Shown here piece after piece: positions 5,862-42,716 of a DNA stretch of 42,716 nucleotides. Both the position numbers and the translations under genes were made by a program. The stretch is from a virus. The notes below the pieces were generated by a model. That model ran no database searches, had not been told where the DNA came from, and saw only the letters and a list, made by a program, of their open reading frames with translations. The stretch covers positions 1 through 42,716 of IMG/VR virus record IMGVR_UViG_3300028378_000004. One strand, 5' to 3'. Numbering within the stretch: position 1 is the stretch's first letter; each line of letters begins with the position of its first letter.

Positions 5862-8800
5862 ATGGCATTAACGCCCAGTCAGAAACAGTTTCTGCAAAGT
5901 CGAGCACACCAACCTGAGAGTGAAGACCCTAACGAGGTGTCCACGGCTCCAGCAGGGGCGGGGGTGCGCTCCCGCGTAGCTTCTGCGTTAACACCCTCCC
6001 AACAAGAGTTTCTCCAAAGTCGTGCGCCCCAGCCTGAGCCCGCCCCAGCGGTGGACCCAACGACTGGTGAGGTGCTTGGTATCGGTCTACGCTCTCTCGC
6101 TCAAGTACCTGGGGGTGTCGCTGCAAACGTTATCTCTGCAGTTCAAGGAGTCAGTGGTATTGAGGCTCCAGGTCAAGGGGACTTCTTTGAAGAATTCGCT
6201 CGGGGACAGCGTGAGAGCCAACAGAACCTTCAGGAAGAAACTGCCACAAGGTTTCCAGGGTCAGAATCAGCAGGGCTCGCCTCCCGCGTAGGTCAACAAG
6301 TGTCCTTCTCAATCCCCTCGACTCTCGGGGGTGTTGCTGCTGGTGTAGCCACTGCCCCTGTTGCTGCCTTGCCTATACCAGGGGCTCGCGTTGCCCCGTT
6401 TGCTGCCGGTGGTGCTGCTGCTGGTGCAGTTGCCTTCCGCACAGCCCAGTCTGACATCATGTCTACTTTCATTGAAACTCTTGATGAGGAAAAACGCACT
6501 GCAGAAGGTAGAGGTCTGACACCTGAAGAGGTCGAAGCTGCCAAACTTAAATTTGATACCCGGGCTACTGAGTTCGGTCTCTGGGAGGCGTTGCCTGAAG
6601 CTGCCGGTGGTGCCCTGGCGGGTCGTCTGATCTTTGGGCCTTTATCTAAAGTTGCCGGTGGTACTGTCGCTCGATCGATCTTCAAGAAACTCGGGGCGGC
6701 TGCTGGTGTAGCCGGTGAAGAACTCGCGACTGAGACCATTACGCAGATTGGCCAAGAGCAGACTTTGGCTGGTACACGCCTCGGTGTTCCTGAGGACGAA
6801 GCCCCATCGTTTACCAGCGCTGATGATATTGTAGAAGCCTTTAAACAAATTGCTCCGGATACTTTGTTGTTGACAGCTATCATGGGTGGTGGTCTCAAAG
6901 GCGGTCAACTTATTGCTCAGCGTCGTGCCCAAGGCAAACTCGCCAAAGACCTCGGTGTTGACCGCGCGGACTTGAAAGCCAGAGCCCAACAGTTAGCACT
7001 CGCAAAAGTACAAAATCCCGATCTGGAAATGACTGTCGAGCAACAGAATCAGTTCTTGGCTGGGGCTGTGACCCTCAATGACGCTGGTGAGTTTACCCCA
7101 GTTGTACCAACAGAAGCCCCCCAAGATGATGCAGAAAGTGCACCAACTGAAACTCCGACCGAACAGCGGCCGCCTGCGGCTGAGAGTACCACACCAGAAA
7201 CTCCCTTAACGGAAGAGACTCCGACACCGCAGGCGGCCACTTTAGCCGAGCTAAGCCGTGAAGAACTTATTGCTGAATTTAATGTTGCACAAGAAGAAGC
7301 CAAGACCGGCGAGCCCGAAGCTGTTGCTCGCTTTGAAGCTGTCAGGGCTGAGGTCAAACTGCAGTCCGATGCTGAGAGAGCGGCGCAGTTAGAAACGCCG
7401 GTAGGGGAAGAGGTACAAGACCTCAACGCTCGGATAGTAGAAGATGCGAAGGTCATTGAAACACCTAACGCATTTATAAAGGCACAAGTAGACGGGGTTG
7501 AGGTTCAGATATCAAAAGAGCAAGCTGCCCAGATGCAAGCTGAGGCGAATAAGAAAGCCAAGAAACTCATGGCCGCCGACACAACACTCACGAAAGCAAC
7601 TGCTATCGCCCAAGTGAGGGACGAAATCTTCTTACGCGCCAAAGACGTCCAGACCCTCAACGAGGGTATCTCTCGAGAGATAGGAGGTCCGGTTGCCCCA
7701 GAAGCCTATACAGTAGCGCAGTCTCCGAAAGGGGCCGAAGGTGACTTCATCCAGCAGATCGGGCAGGCTACAGGGACCCGTATAGTTTTTGTCAATCTGG
7801 CGAAGGACGCTCCTGTACAGTTCCGAGGGGCTACCAGGTTCCCTGGCGACCCAGGTATTATTTATGTCAACGCCGCCTCGAAAAAGCCTCACTTAGCTGT
7901 TACTGGCCACGAGTTTTTGCATCAGATCAGAGCGAGCGACCCGAACTTCTACGCCGAAGTTCTGCCAGCGTTCTTAAAGGTTATCCCACAGAATCTGATC
8001 ACACAACGGATGGAGGCTCTTAATGCCCATCGGAAGTCCCAAGGCCGCAAGGAGCTCTCAAAGGCAGACATCCAGGAAGAAGTCGTTGCAGACTATTTCG
8101 GCGAGCAGTTCCAAACCAAGGAGTTCTGGGCCAAGGTTGAGAAAAATAACCCGACTACGTTTGGTCGTATTGCAGAAGCCTTCATTCGCTTCATGGAGAC
8201 TATTAAAGGCCAGTTCACAGGCGCTCAGTCTGCCGATCTTGAGAAAGCCCAGAACGCTGCTGCTGAGGCTCTGGCACGGTACGTTCGAAAGAACCCAGAT
8301 GTTGAGGTCTCTTCGACTGCGAAGTATATGGCCGCTGCGTGGCACGGCTCCCCCCACCAGTTTAATAAGTTCTTAACCGCGTCGATCGGCACAGGCGAGG
8401 GCGCTCAGGTTTATGGCTGGGGTCTTTACTTTGCTTCGAGCAAAGGCGTGGCAGAGTGGTACAGGGACGTGCTGGCCAAAGACTTCAGAGGCGTAGAAAC
8501 GCCTTTTGGTGATTTTAATAGCGGGAGCACCCCAGCCAGAACTAGCTTTTCAGAGATGCTGTTCGTGCGCGGGTGGACCCCAGAGCAGTTGGCTGGGGGG
8601 GCTTTGCTAGGTACCAAGGGGGATGTAAATACAGCAATAGATTTTTTAGAGAAAACGATTGAGTTTGCTAAACTAACTGGGCAGGCTAACCAGCTTCCAG
8701 ACATAAAGAACGCCCTTATACTCGTATTAGAAACGAGCCAGTCTGAAATCACATATAATGACGCCCCAGGCTCCCTCTTCCAAGTCGAACTCGCCCCGAC

Positions 8801-11800
8801 CGAGGATGAGTATCTGTTATGGGATAAGCCGTTGTCTGAGCAGAGTGAGTTGGTGCAGAAGTCCTTAGAGGGTATAAGGACAACCATTGACGAACGGTTT
8901 ATTGAAGATGCTGAAGATGGCCTTAACGCCGACATGAGCGATTGGACGGGGGGAGAACTGGTACGGGTTATGGGGGTATGGGCTGGAGAAGGCGCTTTAG
9001 TGTCCAACGAAGCCTCTAAGAGTGCAGACCAAGACGTTTCTGAGTTCCTCCTCTCCCTCGGCATCCGGGGTAATAAGTATCTGGACGGGCAGAGCCGGTC
9101 TCTTGGTGAAGGTGATTTTAATTATGTCCTGTTTGATGAAGCCGATGTTTCTGTCACTGCGAAGTTTGATGAGCAAACAGACCGCAAGTTCGCCATAGCC
9201 CGCGAAATATCCAAAGCTAATAAGGAGGCGCAAGATGCCCAAAACCCCCAAGGTCCAATCGAAATTGCCGAAGTCCCTGCCTCGCCAAGATCTGCGGAAG
9301 CTGATACGCCAAGCACTCAAGAGTTACCCTTCCAGACCCATCCCGCCTTCGATAACGGAGAAGTGGGAGACCGCGCCCGGTGGCTTGGTTCTCTAGCCAA
9401 CAGCGCACTGGAAGCAGGGTTTACGATCGAGGAAGTCAAGGCTGACATCGCCGCTGAGGTTAACGCACAGGCCCGAGCCAACGACCGCATCGTTCCTGAG
9501 ATGCAACGGGTGCTACAGATCACACCGTTCGACCAGCTTGTCGCTGAGTACCCTGGGTGGGTGAGTGCGAACGAGGGCACGATCGGTGGGGCTGAGATTA
9601 AGTTTGATGAGGTGGATGGTGCAGCTTTCTTTGAACCTAAAGCATTAGCTGAGGCTGAGGAGTCGGCCAGCGGGGCGAAATCCCGCACCACGATCATAAC
9701 AATATCTCCGGAAAGGTTCCTCCAGCTTGCAGCCCCTGGCAAGGCTATTGAGAAAACAGAAGGCGTTGAGGCTGTCTTGGATCGCGGTGACAAGTTTAGT
9801 GGGCTGCCCTTCCTTTCTTTTGAACACGATGGCAAAGGGACGGCCAAGATAGCAGGCCATGAAGGTCGCCACCGTATGAGAGCCCTCCAAGCCCGTGGGG
9901 TTAAACAGGTTCCTATTGAGTTTATCTCTAAAGAGAGTGGTGAAGGTGCAGGAATCCGCTGGGGTAGCCAAGACAATAAATTCGATAAGGTTAAAGTGTT
10001 CCCTACCAAGATTGAGTCGGAGGAGAGTTCTGCGACTTTCGCTTTCCCTATCAGTTCCATTTTTCCACAGGAGGTAGTGCCTGAGGTAGATCGAGACGCG
10101 GTGCTTACTGCCTTAGAAGCTGATGTATCTACTGATGAGCTTATTAATATACTTAAAGGGGCCGGTATTAAGTTTGATGAAGGAGGGCTAGAAAATGCAA
10201 TCGCACAAAGCTTGCCTCAAGAAAAGCTCGACATTATGTTCGCTATCTCTAATGCGTCTGGACGGGGACTTTTCGGAGGGGCGCGTCCAAGAGTTTCTGG
10301 AAATACTAAACTCCGAGATAAATTATCAAAAGTCGCTGGGATGTTCGGACACGACGTTATCCTCATGGCTGATGACCCTGCTTTCCGAGTGCAGGGATTT
10401 ATTCACCCGAAAGACCCAGCCAGCATCTATATTGTGGACTCCGGAACTGGGGATCAAAATCACCTTGAAGTCTTAGGGCACGAACTGTTGCACCAAGTTC
10501 GCCAAGCCGATGAGGCGTTATATAAAGAACTGGTCACTGGTCTCCAAGAGGCTGGCATTAATGACCAAGCTATCGCAGAGTATTTCAGGGCCGCCCATAA
10601 ACTGACCCAGGACACTACTGGCACACTGGATGTGCCTCCAGCTATTGCTGAAGAGTGGGTTGCTGATGTGGTCGGTCGGAACATGACCTCTGAAGCCTTC
10701 TGGGCAGACCTTCAGGCGGCGCGCCCCGATATAGCAGTAAAACTAGCCCGAGTAATTAACGATCTATTGGCCCAGGTCAAAGGGCTTCTCGCCAGTGCCA
10801 AGCTCACCGAGACAACCTTGAAGGATGTACGCAAAGCAGAGCAGGTTACTGCTGACGTACTAGCTAAATATGCCCCTCAGCCCATCCGCTTTGACGAACC
10901 AACCAAAGCTTTTGAGGCTATGTCGGCCGCGACGGTCAGCAACCTCGCCAAGCTCAAGCAGGTACACAACACCGCTGCTCTCAAGCCCGCAGCCCGAGAA
11001 GCCTTGTTTAAAGTCACGCCATTACAGATCATGTCTGACGTTTATAGTAATGTGCTCCCAAGGCTTAAAGATTTTGTCAAGCTGATAGGCAAGAGAGACG
11101 CCCGTGTCAACTCCTTTGTTGATGAAGGCGCAGTGGCTATGGAAGAGATTAATGGTTTGCTTGCCAAGCACTTCGGCCGCAAGCAGTTCGGTCTGGGTAA
11201 AGGGTACAAGCGGGGGGTTGAGAAATTCCAGTCTGCGGTTCTCAATGCGACCTGGCATAAGATGCACCCTGAGCTCGGGGTTATGGAGCAAGACTGGATC
11301 ACAGAGTGGGAGCAGGAGCAGGTGGACATCCGTGTCGAAGCCCTCACCGGTTCTGGTATGCCCAAGGAAGCCGCCACCTCCCAAGCAGAAAAAGAAGTTG
11401 AGAGAATCCCAGCGGCTAATAAGCTCAAGGCTGCTCAGGGGGGCTGGGAAGCTGACGGTATGCAGGAGGCGACAGGCCGAACGTTCCGTGAGGCGCACAA
11501 CCTGGTCGATAAGTCGTGGAGGGCCCTCCAGCACGAGGACCTTCAGTTCGCAGTTCTCAAGGCCGCTGACAAGATGCAGGAGATACGTCAGGTCGAGTTT
11601 GACAGCACCAAACGGCTGATTGAGGAATACACTGACAAAGGGTCAAGGCAGCGTGAGCAGTTCGCCAGCAGCCTAAGTGCGCAGTTCAACAGCATTAAGG
11701 GTATGTACTGGCCCCTCAACCGCGATGGTAAGTACGAACTCTCTTATCAGGACACACAGGGGGTTCTCCACAAAGAAAAAGCCGAAAGCCCCTTTGAGCA

Positions 11801-13958
11801 AGAAGCCAAGATCGCAGCGTTGGTTCGTGCTGGCATCCCCCGTGACAGTATTGTCAAGTCTATCTCAGAAGAGTTTGAGGGGTCGATTGACGCGGCGCCG
11901 ACTGAGTTATTTACCCAGCTTCTGGATGCGGCTGTTGCCACGGAACTAAAAGCCCTGCCCCCCGATGCCGATGAGGCTTCCCGCGCGGCCGCCAGAGAGC
12001 GTGCGACTGATGCTGTCAATGGGATGACTGAGGTGTGGTTGCGGTGGCAGCCTGAGACCTCTGCCCTTAAAAACTCATTACAACGTCAGAATATTGCCGG
12101 GGCCTCACGGGACGCTGAGCGTGGATTTTTGAAGTACATGCAGAACCATGGTAAGCGTATCTCTGAGCTGGATGAGGGGCGTCAAATCTCTGCCCTTTTG
12201 ACTGACATGCGCAACACGATCTCTACGAAACGCAAGGAGGGTAATGATGTAGACCTCGAGGGGCAGATTCTTAATGACCTCAAAGCCCGCATTGCTGCTG
12301 ACAGAACCAACACGACCGGGCAAGTGGCAAAACTGCTGGGCCGGACCAGCACTCTGTATATGATGACCTCGCCCTCGATCGCACTGGTGCAGATGTCCCA
12401 GCTCGGGATTCTCACGTTCCCGGCGCTTGCGGTTAAGTACGGCCCTGCTGCTGCGACCAAGCACCTCACAAATGGAATCAGTATGGCGTTTAGCTCCAAG
12501 TACAGCCGACAGGCTATCTTTGCAGACCCACAGGTTAATAAGGCTTACGAGACCATCCACCGCACAGTCACCGCTGAGGACCAGCGTGAGGGCTTGGCTT
12601 TAGGTAAGAAGATCGGTGAGTCGTTCTTTGACAAGGATACTGTCGAGGGTGCTACTGAGATTAAAAAAGCCCTGAAAGATTTGACAAAAGACCAAGCCCG
12701 CACGTTAGCACTCCGTGAAGGGCTATCTCGCAATATTATGGACATCAGCCTCTCGCATGAGGTCGGAGAGATTGTCTCTGGCCAAGACCCCACCAAGCCT
12801 ACCAACCAAGCTTTTAAGGGGGCTATGTGGTTCATGCGCATGTCTGAGACCGCTTCGCGTAAAGCGACTATCATGGCAACCTTTGATGCTGCCGGTGGTA
12901 AAGACAACTTCTTCGAGGCTATGGACGCTGCGGAGGACATTACCAAGAGCACTCTGTTTGACTACTCGACCAGCGCTAAAGGTGTCGCCCTTAGAGGGGA
13001 TACCGCCAAAGTTATTATGACGTTCCAAACGTTTCGTATCATGGCCGCTTTCCGGATTGGGCTGATGGTTAAAAACTCTGTCGCTAATGAGTCCAAGGAA
13101 GTGCAGAACAACGCCCGCAAAGAACTCGTCGGGGTTATGGGGATGTCGGCTCTGCTTGCCGGTACAATGGGTATGCCGTTTGTGAATGTCCTGATGGGCG
13201 CGCTGTCCATGGCCATGGGGGATGACGATGAGCCTTACGATGCTGAGACTGATTTCCGAGCATGGTTGGAAGAGAACTTCGGTGAGGCCGGTGGGCGTGT
13301 CCTGGCCGGTGGTGTTGGTACTCTGATCGGTATGACCGCAGGGCAGCGTATTGGCTTAGGGGACGTGTACGGCTCGTCTTATGGTCCATGGCCGACCACG
13401 CACGGTCGTGACTATGCGGCTTACCTGGCCACACAGCTTATTGGTCCTGCGTACTCTGTTGCTGAGGGCTGGGCGGTCGGGTATGATGAGATGGTCAACA
13501 AGGGCAACATTGTGAAGGGGCTTGAGGCATCAACGCCTAAGCCGGTGCGGGACATGATCCGCGCTTACGGTATTTTCTCAGACGGGGTCAAGCTGCCTGA
13601 CCAGCGCCGTATTCTGAAAGCAGAAGATGTGAGTTTGGATGAGGTGTTGCTGATGGGTATCGGCTTCCAACCAACCGAGATTTTTGAGATGAAACGTAAA
13701 GAGCGTAACATTGCTATGATGTCAGCGATTGTTTCAGAGCGTCGGGGCTTGTTGATTCGGCGTGTTATAAGGGAAGGCAGGGATGGTGGCGACCCACACG
13801 GAGCGCTGGAGGAGCTCAAACAGTTTGCACGAAAGAACCCCAGCGCCTCTCAAGGACTCGGCTCAGCCATTGCTTCGGCTATGCGCAACGCTGCTAAGGA
13901 TGACGCCGGGGTCAGGACCAAACGTGAAGAACTTAATCGTCAGGCATTTGGGCAGTAA
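5862..13958 (+). CDS. Giant polyvalent virion protein: two zincins, ART-like and ParB-like domains
   Basis: 2698 residues, likely packaged and ejected with the DNA. In order: a duplicated N-terminal motif (ALTPSQxxFLQSRA, residues 2-15 and 42-55); a hydrophobic Ala/Gly segment (about 145-192); a zincin metallopeptidase with H683-EFL-H687 and a probable third ligand in EEVVAD (E739/E740); an ADP-ribosyltransferase-like domain from AAWHGSPHQF (H828) through GWGLYFASS to FNYVLFDE (E1093); a ParB-like GHEGRHR motif (1332-1338); a second zincin with H1540-ELL-H1544 and EEWVAD (E1597/E1598); then a long helical C-terminal region with hydrophobic stretches near 2163-2197, 2423-2453 and 2477-2497. 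This mosaic matches the 'polyvalent proteins' of phages and conjugative elements, where effector domains enter the host with the DNA. The membrane-active ends could help DNA pass the envelope. Confidence 0.88.
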   Translation: MALTPSQKQFLQSRAHQPESEDPNEVSTAPAGAGVRSRVASALTPSQQEFLQSRAPQPEPAPAVDPTTGEVLGIGLRSLAQVPGGVAANVISAVQGVSGIEAPGQGDFFEEFARGQRESQQNLQEETATRFPGSESAGLASRVGQQVSFSIPSTLGGVAAGVATAPVAALPIPGARVAPFAAGGAAAGAVAFRTAQSDIMSTFIETLDEEKRTAEGRGLTPEEVEAAKLKFDTRATEFGLWEALPEAAGGALAGRLIFGPLSKVAGGTVARSIFKKLGAAAGVAGEELATETITQIGQEQTLAGTRLGVPEDEAPSFTSADDIVEAFKQIAPDTLLLTAIMGGGLKGGQLIAQRRAQGKLAKDLGVDRADLKARAQQLALAKVQNPDLEMTVEQQNQFLAGAVTLNDAGEFTPVVPTEAPQDDAESAPTETPTEQRPPAAESTTPETPLTEETPTPQAATLAELSREELIAEFNVAQEEAKTGEPEAVARFEAVRAEVKLQSDAERAAQLETPVGEEVQDLNARIVEDAKVIETPNAFIKAQVDGVEVQISKEQAAQMQAEANKKAKKLMAADTTLTKATAIAQVRDEIFLRAKDVQTLNEGISREIGGPVAPEAYTVAQSPKGAEGDFIQQIGQATGTRIVFVNLAKDAPVQFRGATRFPGDPGIIYVNAASKKPHLAVTGHEFLHQIRASDPNFYAEVLPAFLKVIPQNLITQRMEALNAHRKSQGRKELSKADIQEEVVADYFGEQFQTKEFWAKVEKNNPTTFGRIAEAFIRFMETIKGQFTGAQSADLEKAQNAAAEALARYVRKNPDVEVSSTAKYMAAAWHGSPHQFNKFLTASIGTGEGAQVYGWGLYFASSKGVAEWYRDVLAKDFRGVETPFGDFNSGSTPARTSFSEMLFVRGWTPEQLAGGALLGTKGDVNTAIDFLEKTIEFAKLTGQANQLPDIKNALILVLETSQSEITYNDAPGSLFQVELAPTEDEYLLWDKPLSEQSELVQKSLEGIRTTIDERFIEDAEDGLNADMSDWTGGELVRVMGVWAGEGALVSNEASKSADQDVSEFLLSLGIRGNKYLDGQSRSLGEGDFNYVLFDEADVSVTAKFDEQTDRKFAIAREISKANKEAQDAQNPQGPIEIAEVPASPRSAEADTPSTQELPFQTHPAFDNGEVGDRARWLGSLANSALEAGFTIEEVKADIAAEVNAQARANDRIVPEMQRVLQITPFDQLVAEYPGWVSANEGTIGGAEIKFDEVDGAAFFEPKALAEAEESASGAKSRTTIITISPERFLQLAAPGKAIEKTEGVEAVLDRGDKFSGLPFLSFEHDGKGTAKIAGHEGRHRMRALQARGVKQVPIEFISKESGEGAGIRWGSQDNKFDKVKVFPTKIESEESSATFAFPISSIFPQEVVPEVDRDAVLTALEADVSTDELINILKGAGIKFDEGGLENAIAQSLPQEKLDIMFAISNASGRGLFGGARPRVSGNTKLRDKLSKVAGMFGHDVILMADDPAFRVQGFIHPKDPASIYIVDSGTGDQNHLEVLGHELLHQVRQADEALYKELVTGLQEAGINDQAIAEYFRAAHKLTQDTTGTLDVPPAIAEEWVADVVGRNMTSEAFWADLQAARPDIAVKLARVINDLLAQVKGLLASAKLTETTLKDVRKAEQVTADVLAKYAPQPIRFDEPTKAFEAMSAATVSNLAKLKQVHNTAALKPAAREALFKVTPLQIMSDVYSNVLPRLKDFVKLIGKRDARVNSFVDEGAVAMEEINGLLAKHFGRKQFGLGKGYKRGVEKFQSAVLNATWHKMHPELGVMEQDWITEWEQEQVDIRVEALTGSGMPKEAATSQAEKEVERIPAANKLKAAQGGWEADGMQEATGRTFREAHNLVDKSWRALQHEDLQFAVLKAADKMQEIRQVEFDSTKRLIEEYTDKGSRQREQFASSLSAQFNSIKGMYWPLNRDGKYELSYQDTQGVLHKEKAESPFEQEAKIAALVRAGIPRDSIVKSISEEFEGSIDAAPTELFTQLLDAAVATELKALPPDADEASRAAARERATDAVNGMTEVWLRWQPETSALKNSLQRQNIAGASRDAERGFLKYMQNHGKRISELDEGRQISALLTDMRNTISTKRKEGNDVDLEGQILNDLKARIAADRTNTTGQVAKLLGRTSTLYMMTSPSIALVQMSQLGILTFPALAVKYGPAAATKHLTNGISMAFSSKYSRQAIFADPQVNKAYETIHRTVTAEDQREGLALGKKIGESFFDKDTVEGATEIKKALKDLTKDQARTLALREGLSRNIMDISLSHEVGEIVSGQDPTKPTNQAFKGAMWFMRMSETASRKATIMATFDAAGGKDNFFEAMDAAEDITKSTLFDYSTSAKGVALRGDTAKVIMTFQTFRIMAAFRIGLMVKNSVANESKEVQNNARKELVGVMGMSALLAGTMGMPFVNVLMGALSMAMGDDDEPYDAETDFRAWLEENFGEAGGRVLAGGVGTLIGMTAGQRIGLGDVYGSSYGPWPTTHGRDYAAYLATQLIGPAYSVAEGWAVGYDEMVNKGNIVKGLEASTPKPVRDMIRAYGIFSDGVKLPDQRRILKAEDVSLDEVLLMGIGFQPTEIFEMKRKERNIAMMSAIVSERRGLLIRRVIREGRDGGDPHGALEELKQFARKNPSASQGLGSAIASAMRNAAKDDAGVRTKREELNRQAFGQ

Positions 13959-28938: not shown

Positions 28939-30852
28939 TTATACCTCTTTCAAATCTCCCCATGAGGGTCCAACAGCGGCATCGACCGGGAAATCAATAG
29001 GCAAGTCAACACCCCAGGCTTTTTTGTAAGGTAGGTTCGATAGCAAGTGTGTAAAAAATGGCACTGCTTCTGCCATCTTGCCCAAAGGGAAAATAAAAAA
29101 CAAGCCGTCATGTAGTTCATAGTAAAATTTACCATCAAAACGATTTAGGTGGTTGCGAGCTACCGCCAGGGCTAGGTATTTTTGATCACCGCCTGTGCCT
29201 TGGATTGGGTAGTTAATGGCTGTACTCTCGTTGGCCCACGCATCCTCTCCAGCCCAAGCACCTGGTAGCTGCACTCGCCTACCGGCAAAGGTTTCAGCAA
29301 AACCTTGGTATTTGCAGTCGAGAATCTGCTTGCGCCAGTAGGCTTGTACCCCAGGGTATGACTGCTTATAAATTAACTGAGTCTGCTTGATAAAAGGTAC
29401 ATCTACATCAAGGTCATACTCGACTCTTGCTTTCTTGGTTGCTGTCTTTGCCGATACCCTGTACTGGTAGGACAGGTTGCAAAACTTCCCGGCTTTTCGG
29501 TCATTGACTGCTTGAGGATCTTCTGCGTGGAATCTATTTACCAAATCCATATACTCGACGTTTGCCACTTGGGACCCCATAAAACTATGGGCGTCCTGGC
29601 CTTGAGCACAAAGACTGAGCATCGTTTCATCTTCAGAGGCTACTGCCATCCACCGAAACTCTTGGCCTGCAAAGTCAAGCTCAGCCATACCAAAACCTTC
29701 AGGGGCTTGTATAATCCTCCGGTAGTCTCTTCCACGCTTCCACTGGTGAAGGGCTATGCCTGTTGGCACTAATACATTTCGTACTACTTGGTGCTCACCT
29801 TTCGCCTTCGTCGTTTTTGTAACGACTTCTTTCGTTTTATCTTGGCTTGAGTAGGTCATCCTTGACGTGTATGTTCCAAATATCCTTGCAGATGGTCGCA
29901 CACAGCCGTCACCGTTATAGTCAAGGGCTTTTATAGTGGCTTCAGCATACTTTACCTTATTATTTTTAGCTTCCCGGATCTTTTTTAAAGTATTTGCTCG
30001 CGGGTCCATGAGAGCCAGGTCAAAGAGTGCGAATTTATCTGTTGATGGCTGCCCTGTTTTCTTGGAGGTTCCAAGGACCGGCAACTGCCAATCTTTAAAA
30101 AGAAGCTTTTGAAGTTGTTTAGGGCTGCCGAGATTTACACCTTCTATCTCAGGGCTTGACGCTAAAAGTTCAGCATAAAGTTTATCAGCTTCTTCAGTAA
30201 GGGATCTCTTCAAAGATTCAGCTGCCGGTCTTGAAGCCTTTAAGCCATGGACTTTTGACCATGCCACCAACGGTATACACCGGGCCTCGACTAAAGCTGC
30301 AAGCTGCTGACGATCGTTCAACTCACCCCAGAACTTCTCTGCTAACCTTATGACGAACAGTGCGTCACCCTTGTTGCGTGTGAGCAAGCCTTGCATAGAC
30401 TCATCATCATCAGCCTGGAAGTCATCAAAGTCTTTGAACCCTGCATGCTCCGGGTAGTACGTTTTCATGGCGTTAGCAAGGGCGTAGCTCCTGCGCTTGC
30501 TTTTAGGTATAGTGTCACCTTCAGGCTCAACCTGGGCATGTCGCCACAAGAGCATGGCGTCTAACCACTTAACCTGCATTACAAGGTCCTCACACCCGGT
30601 AGCTATGCACCATGAAGCGTCGAAGGCCACGTTCCACCCGAGTATGTAGGCATCAGCCTCTATGGCTTTTTTAAGCATGCCTTCAATAAGAGCCTTGCTT
30701 GGGTATAACTGCCCTGCTACCTTCTCACCTCTGGCAAAACTCGCGGCAGTTACCCACGCTTGGTTGGTGGTCTTTCGCACAGGCTGAAGGGCATACTCCT
30801 GCTTGTCTCCAGCGGTTTCAATATCGAACCCTATACAGCTAGGGAAAATCAT
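28939..30852 (-). CDS. Family A DNA polymerase with 3'-5' exonuclease, 637 aa
   Basis: Exonuclease motifs: GFDIETAG (D10, E12), GWNVAFDAS (N74, D78) and KGDALFVIRL (D163), the last lacking the usual Tyr four residues before the Asp (R159). Polymerase motif A is ELDFAGQEFR (D393, E398), motif B RKAGKFCNLSYQY (R452, K456, L460, Y464), motif C ELHDGLFF (H581, D582). The position equal to E. coli Pol I F762 is Leu (L460), and the motif C Glu after the Asp is Gly (G583). There is no 5'-3' exonuclease domain, as in other phage enzymes. This is the replicative polymerase, working with the primase-helicase and ssDNA-binding protein. Its ATG overlaps the 36-aa zinc-ribbon gene. Confidence 0.93.
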   Translation of the reverse strand: MIFPSCIGFDIETAGDKQEYALQPVRKTTNQAWVTAASFARGEKVAGQLYPSKALIEGMLKKAIEADAYILGWNVAFDASWCIATGCEDLVMQVKWLDAMLLWRHAQVEPEGDTIPKSKRRSYALANAMKTYYPEHAGFKDFDDFQADDDESMQGLLTRNKGDALFVIRLAEKFWGELNDRQQLAALVEARCIPLVAWSKVHGLKASRPAAESLKRSLTEEADKLYAELLASSPEIEGVNLGSPKQLQKLLFKDWQLPVLGTSKKTGQPSTDKFALFDLALMDPRANTLKKIREAKNNKVKYAEATIKALDYNGDGCVRPSARIFGTYTSRMTYSSQDKTKEVVTKTTKAKGEHQVVRNVLVPTGIALHQWKRGRDYRRIIQAPEGFGMAELDFAGQEFRWMAVASEDETMLSLCAQGQDAHSFMGSQVANVEYMDLVNRFHAEDPQAVNDRKAGKFCNLSYQYRVSAKTATKKARVEYDLDVDVPFIKQTQLIYKQSYPGVQAYWRKQILDCKYQGFAETFAGRRVQLPGAWAGEDAWANESTAINYPIQGTGGDQKYLALAVARNHLNRFDGKFYYELHDGLFFIFPLGKMAEAVPFFTHLLSNLPYKKAWGVDLPIDFPVDAAVGPSWGDLKEV

Positions 30853-34260: not shown

Positions 34261-34329
34261 TCACTTTTTCCCAGCGAGGTAAAACAAATAATACCAGTAG
34301 TTATAACGTCTCAGCTCTGTTTTAGTCAT
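34261..34329 (-). CDS. Aromatic micro-ORF, 22 aa
   Basis: ATG 34329 overlaps the previous stop as ATGA and follows AAGGAGAAACACC. The peptide ends RRYNYWYYLFYLAGKK, very rich in Tyr and Trp. It is the last reading frame before the next promoter. Could be a leader peptide or a membrane-active microprotein; could also be chance. Confidence 0.4.
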   Translation of the reverse strand: MTKTELRRYNYWYYLFYLAGKK

Positions 34330-34985
34330 GGTGTTTCTCCTTGTTTAATAAACTCGTCTATCATCTCTTCCAGCATTTCGTTAGCTGCTGACTCTGCTGC
34401 TGACTCTGCTGCTGACTCTGCTGCTGACTCTGCTGCTGACTTTACTGACCATGCTGCTGACTCTGCTGCTGACTTTACTGACCATGCTGCTGACCTTGCT
34501 GCTGACCTTGCTGCTGACCATGCTGCTGACTTTACTGACCATGCTGCTGACCTTGCTGCTGCCTCTGCTGCTGACCTTGCTGACCCTGTTGCTGACCGCT
34601 TGTTATCATCACCACTCTCTAAGTAGGTAACAATTAACTCGTAGTCATCTGCATTTGTGTATGGTTTAATCTTCTCGATGTTTATCAGTGCTTGTTTACG
34701 GGCAAACTTTCGTAATAATTTATCAGCATTAAATCCATGTAGGTAAGTGCGCTCAGAGGCTACAACCTTATCATCCCCATGAACGATGTCTCCACTTAAC
34801 TCAACCACCCAGAGGTATGAGCTTGGGGCATATTGCAAAGCATCAATAGCCTTTATGCTTGCGTGTAGCCCGTGACCACAAAGTTCTAATTCACCTTTTA
34901 CCTTGTGCGTCCTGCCTTTTCTGATCTGCCGGTTGTCGTTGTAGCGTAGCTTCTTATCCATGTTGCTGAAATAATATGCTTTCAT
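34326..34985 (-). CDS. DUF7666-like protein with long Ala/Ser repeat tail, 219 aa
   Basis: Residues 1-120 form a domain (MKAYYFSNMDKKLRY, GLHAS, SYLWVVEL) of the DUF7666 kind seen in phages. From about residue 130 the protein is a run of SAAWSA, SAARSA, SAAESA and SAAWSVK units, probably one long alpha-helix. The function is unknown. Related phage proteins carry similar repeats of variable length, so it is likely to vary between relatives. Confidence 0.7.
   Translation of the reverse strand: MKAYYFSNMDKKLRYNDNRQIRKGRTHKVKGELELCGHGLHASIKAIDALQYAPSSYLWVVELSGDIVHGDDKVVASERTYLHGFNADKLLRKFARKQALINIEKIKPYTNADDYELIVTYLESGDDNKRSATGSARSAAEAAARSAAWSVKSAAWSAARSAARSAAWSVKSAAESAAWSVKSAAESAAESAAESAAESAANEMLEEMIDEFIKQGETP
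34384..34600. repeat. Short tandem repeats encoding the Ala/Ser tail
   Basis: Imperfect tandem units built on GCTGCTGAC with TCT, CTT or CAT spacers (12-15 bases). They encode the SAA-type repeats. Copy number is likely to change by slippage or recombination. Confidence 0.85.
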
Positions 34986-41873: not shown

Positions 41874-42143
41874 TTAATCTCTGTAAATATCAATAGTAAC
41901 TTTAGGATCATAAGACTTGCCGATATACAGTGTGCCAGCATTTGAAAAGCAGATGCAATATACCCGGCGCCATACTCTGTCAACCATGACCATGTAAGGG
42001 GTGGGCAACCGGCGCCCGTACCCGCTAGCAGTCTGGCCGCTGCGAGGTGTTTCGGTCTCTTTAATATGCAGGCCTTGTGTTAGGTAGCAGTTATAACCGC
42101 CTTGCCCGTCGTCTTGCTTGGTCTGTAAATAAGCTTTTAACAT
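41874..42143 (-). CDS. Conserved phage hypothetical protein, 89 aa; first early gene
   Basis: AAGGAG before the ATG. PTPYMVMVDRVWRRVYCICF and GTLYIGKSYD look like a small beta-sheet protein found in other phages without known function. It is the first gene behind the rightmost promoter (42175-42203), so it is likely among the earliest made after infection. Confidence 0.75.
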   Translation of the reverse strand: MLKAYLQTKQDDGQGGYNCYLTQGLHIKETETPRSGQTASGYGRRLPTPYMVMVDRVWRRVYCICFSNAGTLYIGKSYDPKVTIDIYRD

Positions 42144-42174: not shown

Positions 42175-42203
42175 AGTATATCGAAATACTATACAAGTGT
42201 CAA
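42175..42203 (-). promoter_or_regulatory. Strong sigma70-like promoter of the rightmost early operon
   Basis: Minus-strand TTGACA (42198-42203), 17-base spacer, TATACT (42175-42180). The predicted leader to ATG 42143 is about 25 bases. Confidence 0.75.
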
Positions 42204-42238: not shown

Positions 42239-42359
42239 GTGATCCGAGCAGACCGAGCAGACCAAGGCGACCAAGGCGACCAAGGCGACCAAGGTGACCA
42301 AGGCGACCAAGGCGACCAAGGCGACCAAGGCGACCAAGGCGACCAGGTACCCGGATCAC
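42239..42359. repeat. 9-bp tandem repeat array between inverted arms
   Basis: Eleven 9-mers in a row at 42245-42343: two CGAGCAGAC then nine CAAGGYGAC (one with T at the variable base, the rest C). The array is framed by GTGATCCG (42239-42246) and its inverted copy CGGATCAC (42352-42359). It lies just upstream of the first early promoter. Candidates are an iteron origin, a partition or packaging site, or a regulator array. Confidence 0.85.
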
Positions 42360-42716
42360 ACCGCAATCCCCCATATCCAGGCTATTAAGCTGTTTCGGAC
42401 CATACCAGGCCAGAACCGGGCTTCGAGGTTGCTCCACAAGGCACGTTCTCTTGTAAGTCCATAGGAAAGGCTGCAGGGAATCCAGGAGATTCCAGGCGAT
42501 TAAGGGGGGGAGGGCCTTTTTTCTGTGAGGCTGAGGGGGTTGGGGGATATGTACCGGGGCCGGGCGTCATCTATTAATGACATCACAAACGATTTGTTTC
42601 TCAGACCCCTAATATTGTAAACCCCTTGTCATTATAACTTTTCCCTTATAAAATCCCTCAAAATGTATAACCCCTACAAACTATTGTACCCACCCATACA
42701 AGTCCTTGCACACACC
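42360..42716. other. Non-coding right end
   Basis: No convincing gene in these 357 bases. There is a GGAATC/GATTCC inverted repeat near 42479-42495, a long purine run near 42504-42515 followed by CTTTTTT, and an AT-rich last 120 bases with repeated CCCCT and TATAA words. This may be where divergent gene arms meet. Confidence 0.5.
42626..42652 (+). promoter_or_regulatory. Weak candidate plus-strand promoter pointing out of the window
   Basis: TTGTCA (42626-42631), only 15 bases, then TATAAA (42647-42652). The surrounding sequence resembles the minus-strand promoter at 38585-38612 (both have CCCCTTGxCATTATAA). Short spacing makes it doubtful. Confidence 0.3.

Follow-up and report, generated by a model that had tools for sequence, protein, structure and literature searches.

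A probable minisatellite slot in a conserved region between the divergent early and late genes of a tailed-phage family

The 9-bp tandem array near the right end of the phage genome studied here is best explained as an unstable, recurrently born minisatellite that occupies a fixed slot in a conserved, untranscribed, cis-acting region, a reading to which we give a probability of about 0.6. Judged by sequence comparison, the position of the array is conserved across relatives, with no such conservation of its repeat unit, the length of that unit, the inverted arms or the helical phase. The conserved cis region is probably a packaging, genome-end or origin region, of which the array would not itself be the essential site.

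The array and its setting in the window

The stretch of DNA analysed, referred to as the window, is a linear IMG/VR virus record of 42,716 bp. Plus-strand genes occupy the left part, up to ~14.1 kb, and include those for a virion structural protein and a 2698-aa DarB-like protein, and minus-strand genes, running from the right end to ~14.3 kb, encode a DNA polymerase, a primase/helicase, a helicase and nucleases. The spacer ahead of the first early gene is non-coding and holds the array, between divergent early (minus) and late (plus) promoter-like sites; the window stops short of the first late gene, which is TerS-like in relatives. The features are as follows.

41874..42143, minus strand: first early gene, 89 aa, function unassigned (ORF list and translation), transcribed away from the array
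42175..42203, minus strand: strong early promoter-like site TTGACA-17-TATACT, 11/12, between the array and the first early gene and directed away from the array
42239-42246, no strand: left inverted arm GTGATCCG, exact, not conserved in relatives
42245-42343, no strand: tandem array of 11 x 9 bp (2 CGAGCAGAC + 9 CAAGGYGAC)
42279..42527, no strand: segment common to the window and the end of contig L094, 246/249 identical (98.8%)
42352-42359, no strand: right inverted arm CGGATCAC, exact
42504..42564, plus strand: G-run block (G7, G5, G5) with a relaxed quadruplex motif at 42535-42564, of a kind conserved on the late-sense strand of relatives
42617..42623, plus strand: GTAAACC motif, recurrent in relatives
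42626..42654, plus strand: late promoter-like site TTGTCA-17-TAAAAT, 10/12, weak and near chance expectation

The eleven repeats and their flanking arms had been reported in a preliminary description of the window, and the sequence is as reported there, as is the placing of the array, as DNA that does not code for protein, where the early arm begins. Read in the frame CGAGCAGAC/CAAGGYGAC, the two CGAGCAGAC units come first and are followed by the nine CAAGGYGAC units, among which there is a single T variant (42290-42298). The variant units sit at the left edge of a homogeneous interior, which fits slippage or unequal exchange. The array is the top near-perfect array in the window (TRF score 165) and is far beyond chance, its longest period-9 exact self-match run being 41. 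When the full window was shuffled 20 times with dinucleotides preserved, no run was longer than 11, whichever period between 4 and 25 was taken. The first unit overlaps the left arm by 2 bases. Flanking arms that form an 8-bp inverted pair are unlikely by chance, having arisen in 14 of 20,000 shuffles, a figure that is post hoc.

About 40 bp separate the near end of the array from the -35 element of the early promoter-like site, and similar early sites, read by eye, are present in relatives. The array would be transcribed from neither promoter-like site. A search with the 89-aa first early protein found no relatives. An Rfam search of the region returned only a sub-threshold 2dG-II match (E 1.3), RNA folding was no better than that of shuffles (z 0.89 and -0.79), and the region had no match in phage or plasmid collections; an 18-mer of the left arm matched one contig, which is unrelated. 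GC skew follows gene direction and was for that reason left out of origin finding.

A collagen-like gene on the minus strand was also considered and rejected, since the 82-aa ORF reads GRLGRL... and is not credible as a gene, in keeping with the doubt already expressed in the preliminary description. The plus-strand motif of the array occurs in 59 viral contigs, 51 of which encode Gly-X-Y repeats inside long ORFs; unlike these coding repeats, the window array lies in no long ORF, and a position within a gene with a Gly-X-Y frame and a start, as expected of the collagen type, is lacking. Imperfect 12-bp repeats at 34384-34596, within a 219-aa ORF (34326-34985, minus strand), are a coding repeat separate from the array.

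Arrays at the junction in relatives

Relatives were gathered by a polymerase search (44 loci) and a portal search (71 loci), with the first late gene as the landmark of the junction, and every record reaching the junction was examined. The family consists of tailed phages of about 56-65 kb. The arrays found, with copy numbers that derive from metagenome assemblies, were these.

G037: TGCTCGGT x16.8
G044: GCTCCTGC, at least 20.9 copies
G045: AGGGCGA x11.6
G041: TCTGCCCG x6.8
G048 and G049: a 22-mer x10, copies identical
G071: the same 22-mer, x4
G047: a 16-mer x3.8, 97%
G068: GCCT x31.8, starting at the contig end, junction position inferred from the right flank
G070: TGGGAGCT x15.8, displaced one gene into the early arm
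G069: TCCCTTCG x15, displaced upstream of a tandem late gene

Unit length at strictly comparable junctions is 7-22 bp, with 4 bp in the one contig-end case (G068), and the units are unrelated in sequence between lineages, sharing neither a common motif nor a helical phase. The idea, put forward from the window alone, that a 9-bp spacing would wind a protein around the DNA does not generalise to such units. The inverted-arm frame is exact in the window, but arms sought around the relatives' arrays framed none of them, so that it is not a conserved element. Junction arrays were sought and not found in G028, G002, G012, G055, G057, G036 and others, and phage Rollin, the closest isolate, has no such array. 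About half of the lineages lack one, and the hot spot is therefore not universal.

A census of short-period arrays (at least 98% perfect and at least 49 bp) in 10 near-complete relatives gave eight sites, four of them at the strict junction, two displaced (G070 and G069) and two elsewhere. With the junction taken as 1.6-3% of the genome, the binomial probability of four in eight is 4e-6 to 5e-5, which is a rough guide and not a test, as the thresholds were set with the data already in view and the genomes share ancestry. Near-perfect 6-bp arrays away from the junction were seen at G069:6794-6881 (TTCGGG) and G070:29169-29217 (CTGCTC).

Several contigs break at arrays (L094, G044, G037, G050 and G068), and the existence of the slot explains assembly breaks at one point in these phages. 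In G037 and in G044, the contig both starts and stops within its own array, which is what an assembly graph broken at that point alone would give, and such ends can be assembly breaks. The left flank of the G037 array differs between the start and the end of the contig (L241 and L228), which suggests strain variants with a common array that differ beside it, like the window and L094.

Sister phages serve as natural experiments. Between G057 and G044, identity reaches 95.6% in a late-side stretch of 566 bp and 80% in an early-side stretch of 212 bp; G057 has ~45 bp of ordinary sequence at the position of at least 21 copies in G044. G055, G071 and G048 have common flanks, and their copies number 0, 4 and 10. 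This variation between conserved flanks indicates an array that, at the level of the sequences compared, is gained and lost quickly and is dispensable to a lineage, which lowers the claim of the array itself to be an origin, partition or packaging site; the claim of the surrounding region to be such a site is untouched by the loss. Absence of the array from close relatives with normal replication and packaging had been named beforehand as the observation that would count against such roles, and at the sequence level the absence is there in both sister sets (G057/G044 and G055/G071/G048), normal replication and packaging in these phages being presumed.

Conserved flanks and the first late gene

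Runs of at least five G are present on the late-sense strand in 17 of 17 junction regions. A relaxed quadruplex pattern on this strand was found in 13 of the 17, compared with 0-10% of mononucleotide shuffles, a count that includes G045, in which the first quadruplex match is the array itself; in L094, G041, G047 and G044 the G-block does not match the relaxed pattern. GTAAAC/GTTTAC motifs recur in many junction regions, where most GTTTAC copies are on the early side and most GTAAAC copies on the late side. The L094 equivalent of the late promoter-like site is TTGACA-17-TATAAT, 12/12.

The first late gene of the relatives is homologous to a gene of Pseudomonas phage Rollin (hhalign E 1.8e-15), and the Rollin homologue overlaps the large terminase gene (TerL), with the portal gene next. 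TerS-TerL-portal is the usual gene order, and the first late gene is probably TerS. Pfam, PHROGs and PDB profile searches gave it no terminase name; the AlphaFold model of the protein is weak (pLDDT 68), and a Foldseek search with this model placed the TerS proteins of PaP3 and E217 at ranks 8 and 10 with E>1, which is not significant. In some relatives, small genes separate the late promoter from the TerS-like gene.

The proposal that the site may be an origin, a partition site or a packaging start survives for the region rather than for the repeats: the region is a good candidate for an origin, packaging or genome ends; divergent promoters flank it, and the TerS-like gene of relatives is downstream. 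The array itself is not a conserved site. For a little-studied family, this points to a likely packaging or origin locus, the conserved and G-rich divergent stretch next to its terminase genes.

Under the minisatellite reading, the early promoter would be followed by the array slot, the G-rich block, the GTAAACC motifs, the late promoter and the small-terminase gene, in that order. Short local duplications would arise in the slot and then be amplified or lost through slippage or unequal exchange. Such instability may be favoured by stalled forks or DNA ends that replication or packaging would produce here, as the adjoining G-rich block and the neighbouring TerS-like gene suggest, and changes in length would be tolerated as the spacer sits between two outward promoters. 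Any origin, packaging or promoter function would be carried by the conserved flanks rather than by the repeats.

The arrays resemble VNTR/minisatellite loci in their short, near-perfect tandem units, homogeneous centre and variant edges, in a copy number that varies between close relatives (G055/G071/G048 and G057/G044, with units other than the window's) and in a G-rich, quadruplex-prone neighbour. They differ from such loci in that unrelated arrays arise repeatedly at one functional slot across a phage family. For the minisatellite hCEB1, instability driven by quadruplexes has been described (PMC5491262).

Competing readings and known systems

Repeated rebirth at one place could also reflect selection for a repeat, which counts against the minisatellite reading. 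It is possible, though unlikely, that the repeats are functional as an iterated target (origin iterons, a packaging or concatemer-processing array, or a partition-like site) that evolves fast together with its reader in the manner of a centromere, the flanks alone being insufficient in the array-bearing phages. The use of one slot, the high perfection and the repeated independent origins of the arrays are what such a target would lead one to expect, as is the TerS-like gene downstream, and the left end of T7 likewise has repeats beside early promoters. Sisters with conserved flanks and no array are difficult to accommodate, however, as are units of 7-22 bp with no common motif or helical phase and the lack of such an array in Rollin, the closest isolate.

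Known targets of this kind match in part. Replication-origin iterons are also short direct repeats near divergent transcription, but here the units are unrelated among relatives and missing in sisters, where iterons would be expected to keep a conserved unit, and initiator binding is hypothetical. TerS recognises cos or pac, and the pac site of P22 lies inside the TerS gene (review PMC9611059). Like cos and pac sites, the array region is near a probable TerS gene (putative, in relatives); unlike them, the array is dispensable in sister lineages, and cutting or binding by terminase there is hypothetical.

In our comparison, the closest analogue by position is the set of left-end repeats of T7, in which CCTAAAG copies are clustered at 13-bp spacing between 175 and 332, ahead of promoters A1-A3, a stretch that adjoins the terminal repeat. 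The T7/T3 repeats (CCTAAAG heptamers) are likewise an array in non-coding DNA that neighbours the early promoters where the early region begins. The T7 copies are degenerate around one heptamer, whereas in the present family the copies are near-perfect and the unit is lineage-specific, or there is no array, and a terminal repeat beside the array, as in T7, would be hypothetical here. A CCTAAAG-like heptamer with 13-bp spacing was sought here and is absent, and no lineage's unit is CCTAAAG. One phage family supplies natural variants of a single site with different units, different copy numbers or no array, which makes the old question of the role of T7-type end repeats testable by comparison. 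Such arrays are not described in the titles and abstracts of the phage literature covered, a scope outside which most subscription papers fall, and a search of that literature found no account of arrays that swap units at this locus throughout a family.

The main rival to the minisatellite reading is a functional but sequence-free array, actively generated and maintained near the TerS gene, whose function would come from its repetitiveness and not from its sequence. We regard this proposal as doubtful; possible roles would be concatemer joining, spacing, end protection or the provision of flexible DNA, and the array would, if the proposal is true, be a viral counterpart of the fast-turnover repeats of centromeres or telomeres.

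A further explanation starts from the second copy of the window array. L094, a 12-kb contig encoding a major head protein, a portal, a terminase large subunit and an endolysin, terminates inside the same 9-bp array, which recurs there with point differences. Past 42527 the similarity stops sharply, and the sequences are weakly alignable (score 22, compared with 8.1 +/- 4.1 for shuffles). The array and ~180 bp could then be a cassette recently exchanged, by recombination or as a small mobile element, between phages that differ elsewhere. The 98.8% identity over 249 bp with its sharp end is in line with this, as is the finding that an 18-mer of the element has no further copy in viral contigs and four scattered matches in genome contigs, which are taken to be chance matches (the ORF list of one was considered). 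Exchange is nevertheless improbable, as L094 ends within the array and leaves the left boundary out of view, and neither a transposase nor attachment-like ends were seen. When placed on the map of G037, a 59-kb relative, L094/L126 and the window fall on complementary stretches separated by ~7 kb. L126/L127 are strains of L094 at 97-98%, so that the window and L094 may be strains of a single species with differences confined to the downstream part. The comparison is compatible both with two strains of one phage and with a mosaic pair.

A regulatory array, with repressor or activator sites for the divergent early and late promoters, would suit a position between two outward promoter-like sites, with the early -35 element ~40 bp away, but it meets the same objections as the functional target (absence in sisters, no common unit, Rollin without an array), the GTTTAC/GTAAAC flank motifs are better candidates for regulator sites, and we consider it very improbable. 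An assembly artefact or a collagen-like coding repeat is scarcely credible. Contigs do break at arrays, as they would at unresolved repeats, but ten identical 22-bp copies are present in both G048 and G049, which have different sample prefixes, L094 has the same array with point differences, and there is no gene-like reading frame.

Some further observations concern the coding regions. The C-terminal part of the 2698-aa protein (5862-13958) matches a DarB-like antirestriction family. The window DNA polymerase (28939-30852) was detected in one of six relatives compared, G028 (66%), and the same six do share other replication genes with the window, so that the polymerase seems to have been swapped within the family. 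The 813-aa large terminase of L094 (3885-6326, minus strand) has a ~310-aa insertion at the Walker A motif (residues about 32-344), the uninterrupted counterpart of which in the Rollin terminase is GPVG | SGKS. A related stretch lies inside the longer DNA polymerase genes of relatives (e.g. G028:23580-24500), and the insertion looks like an intein common to the two genes.
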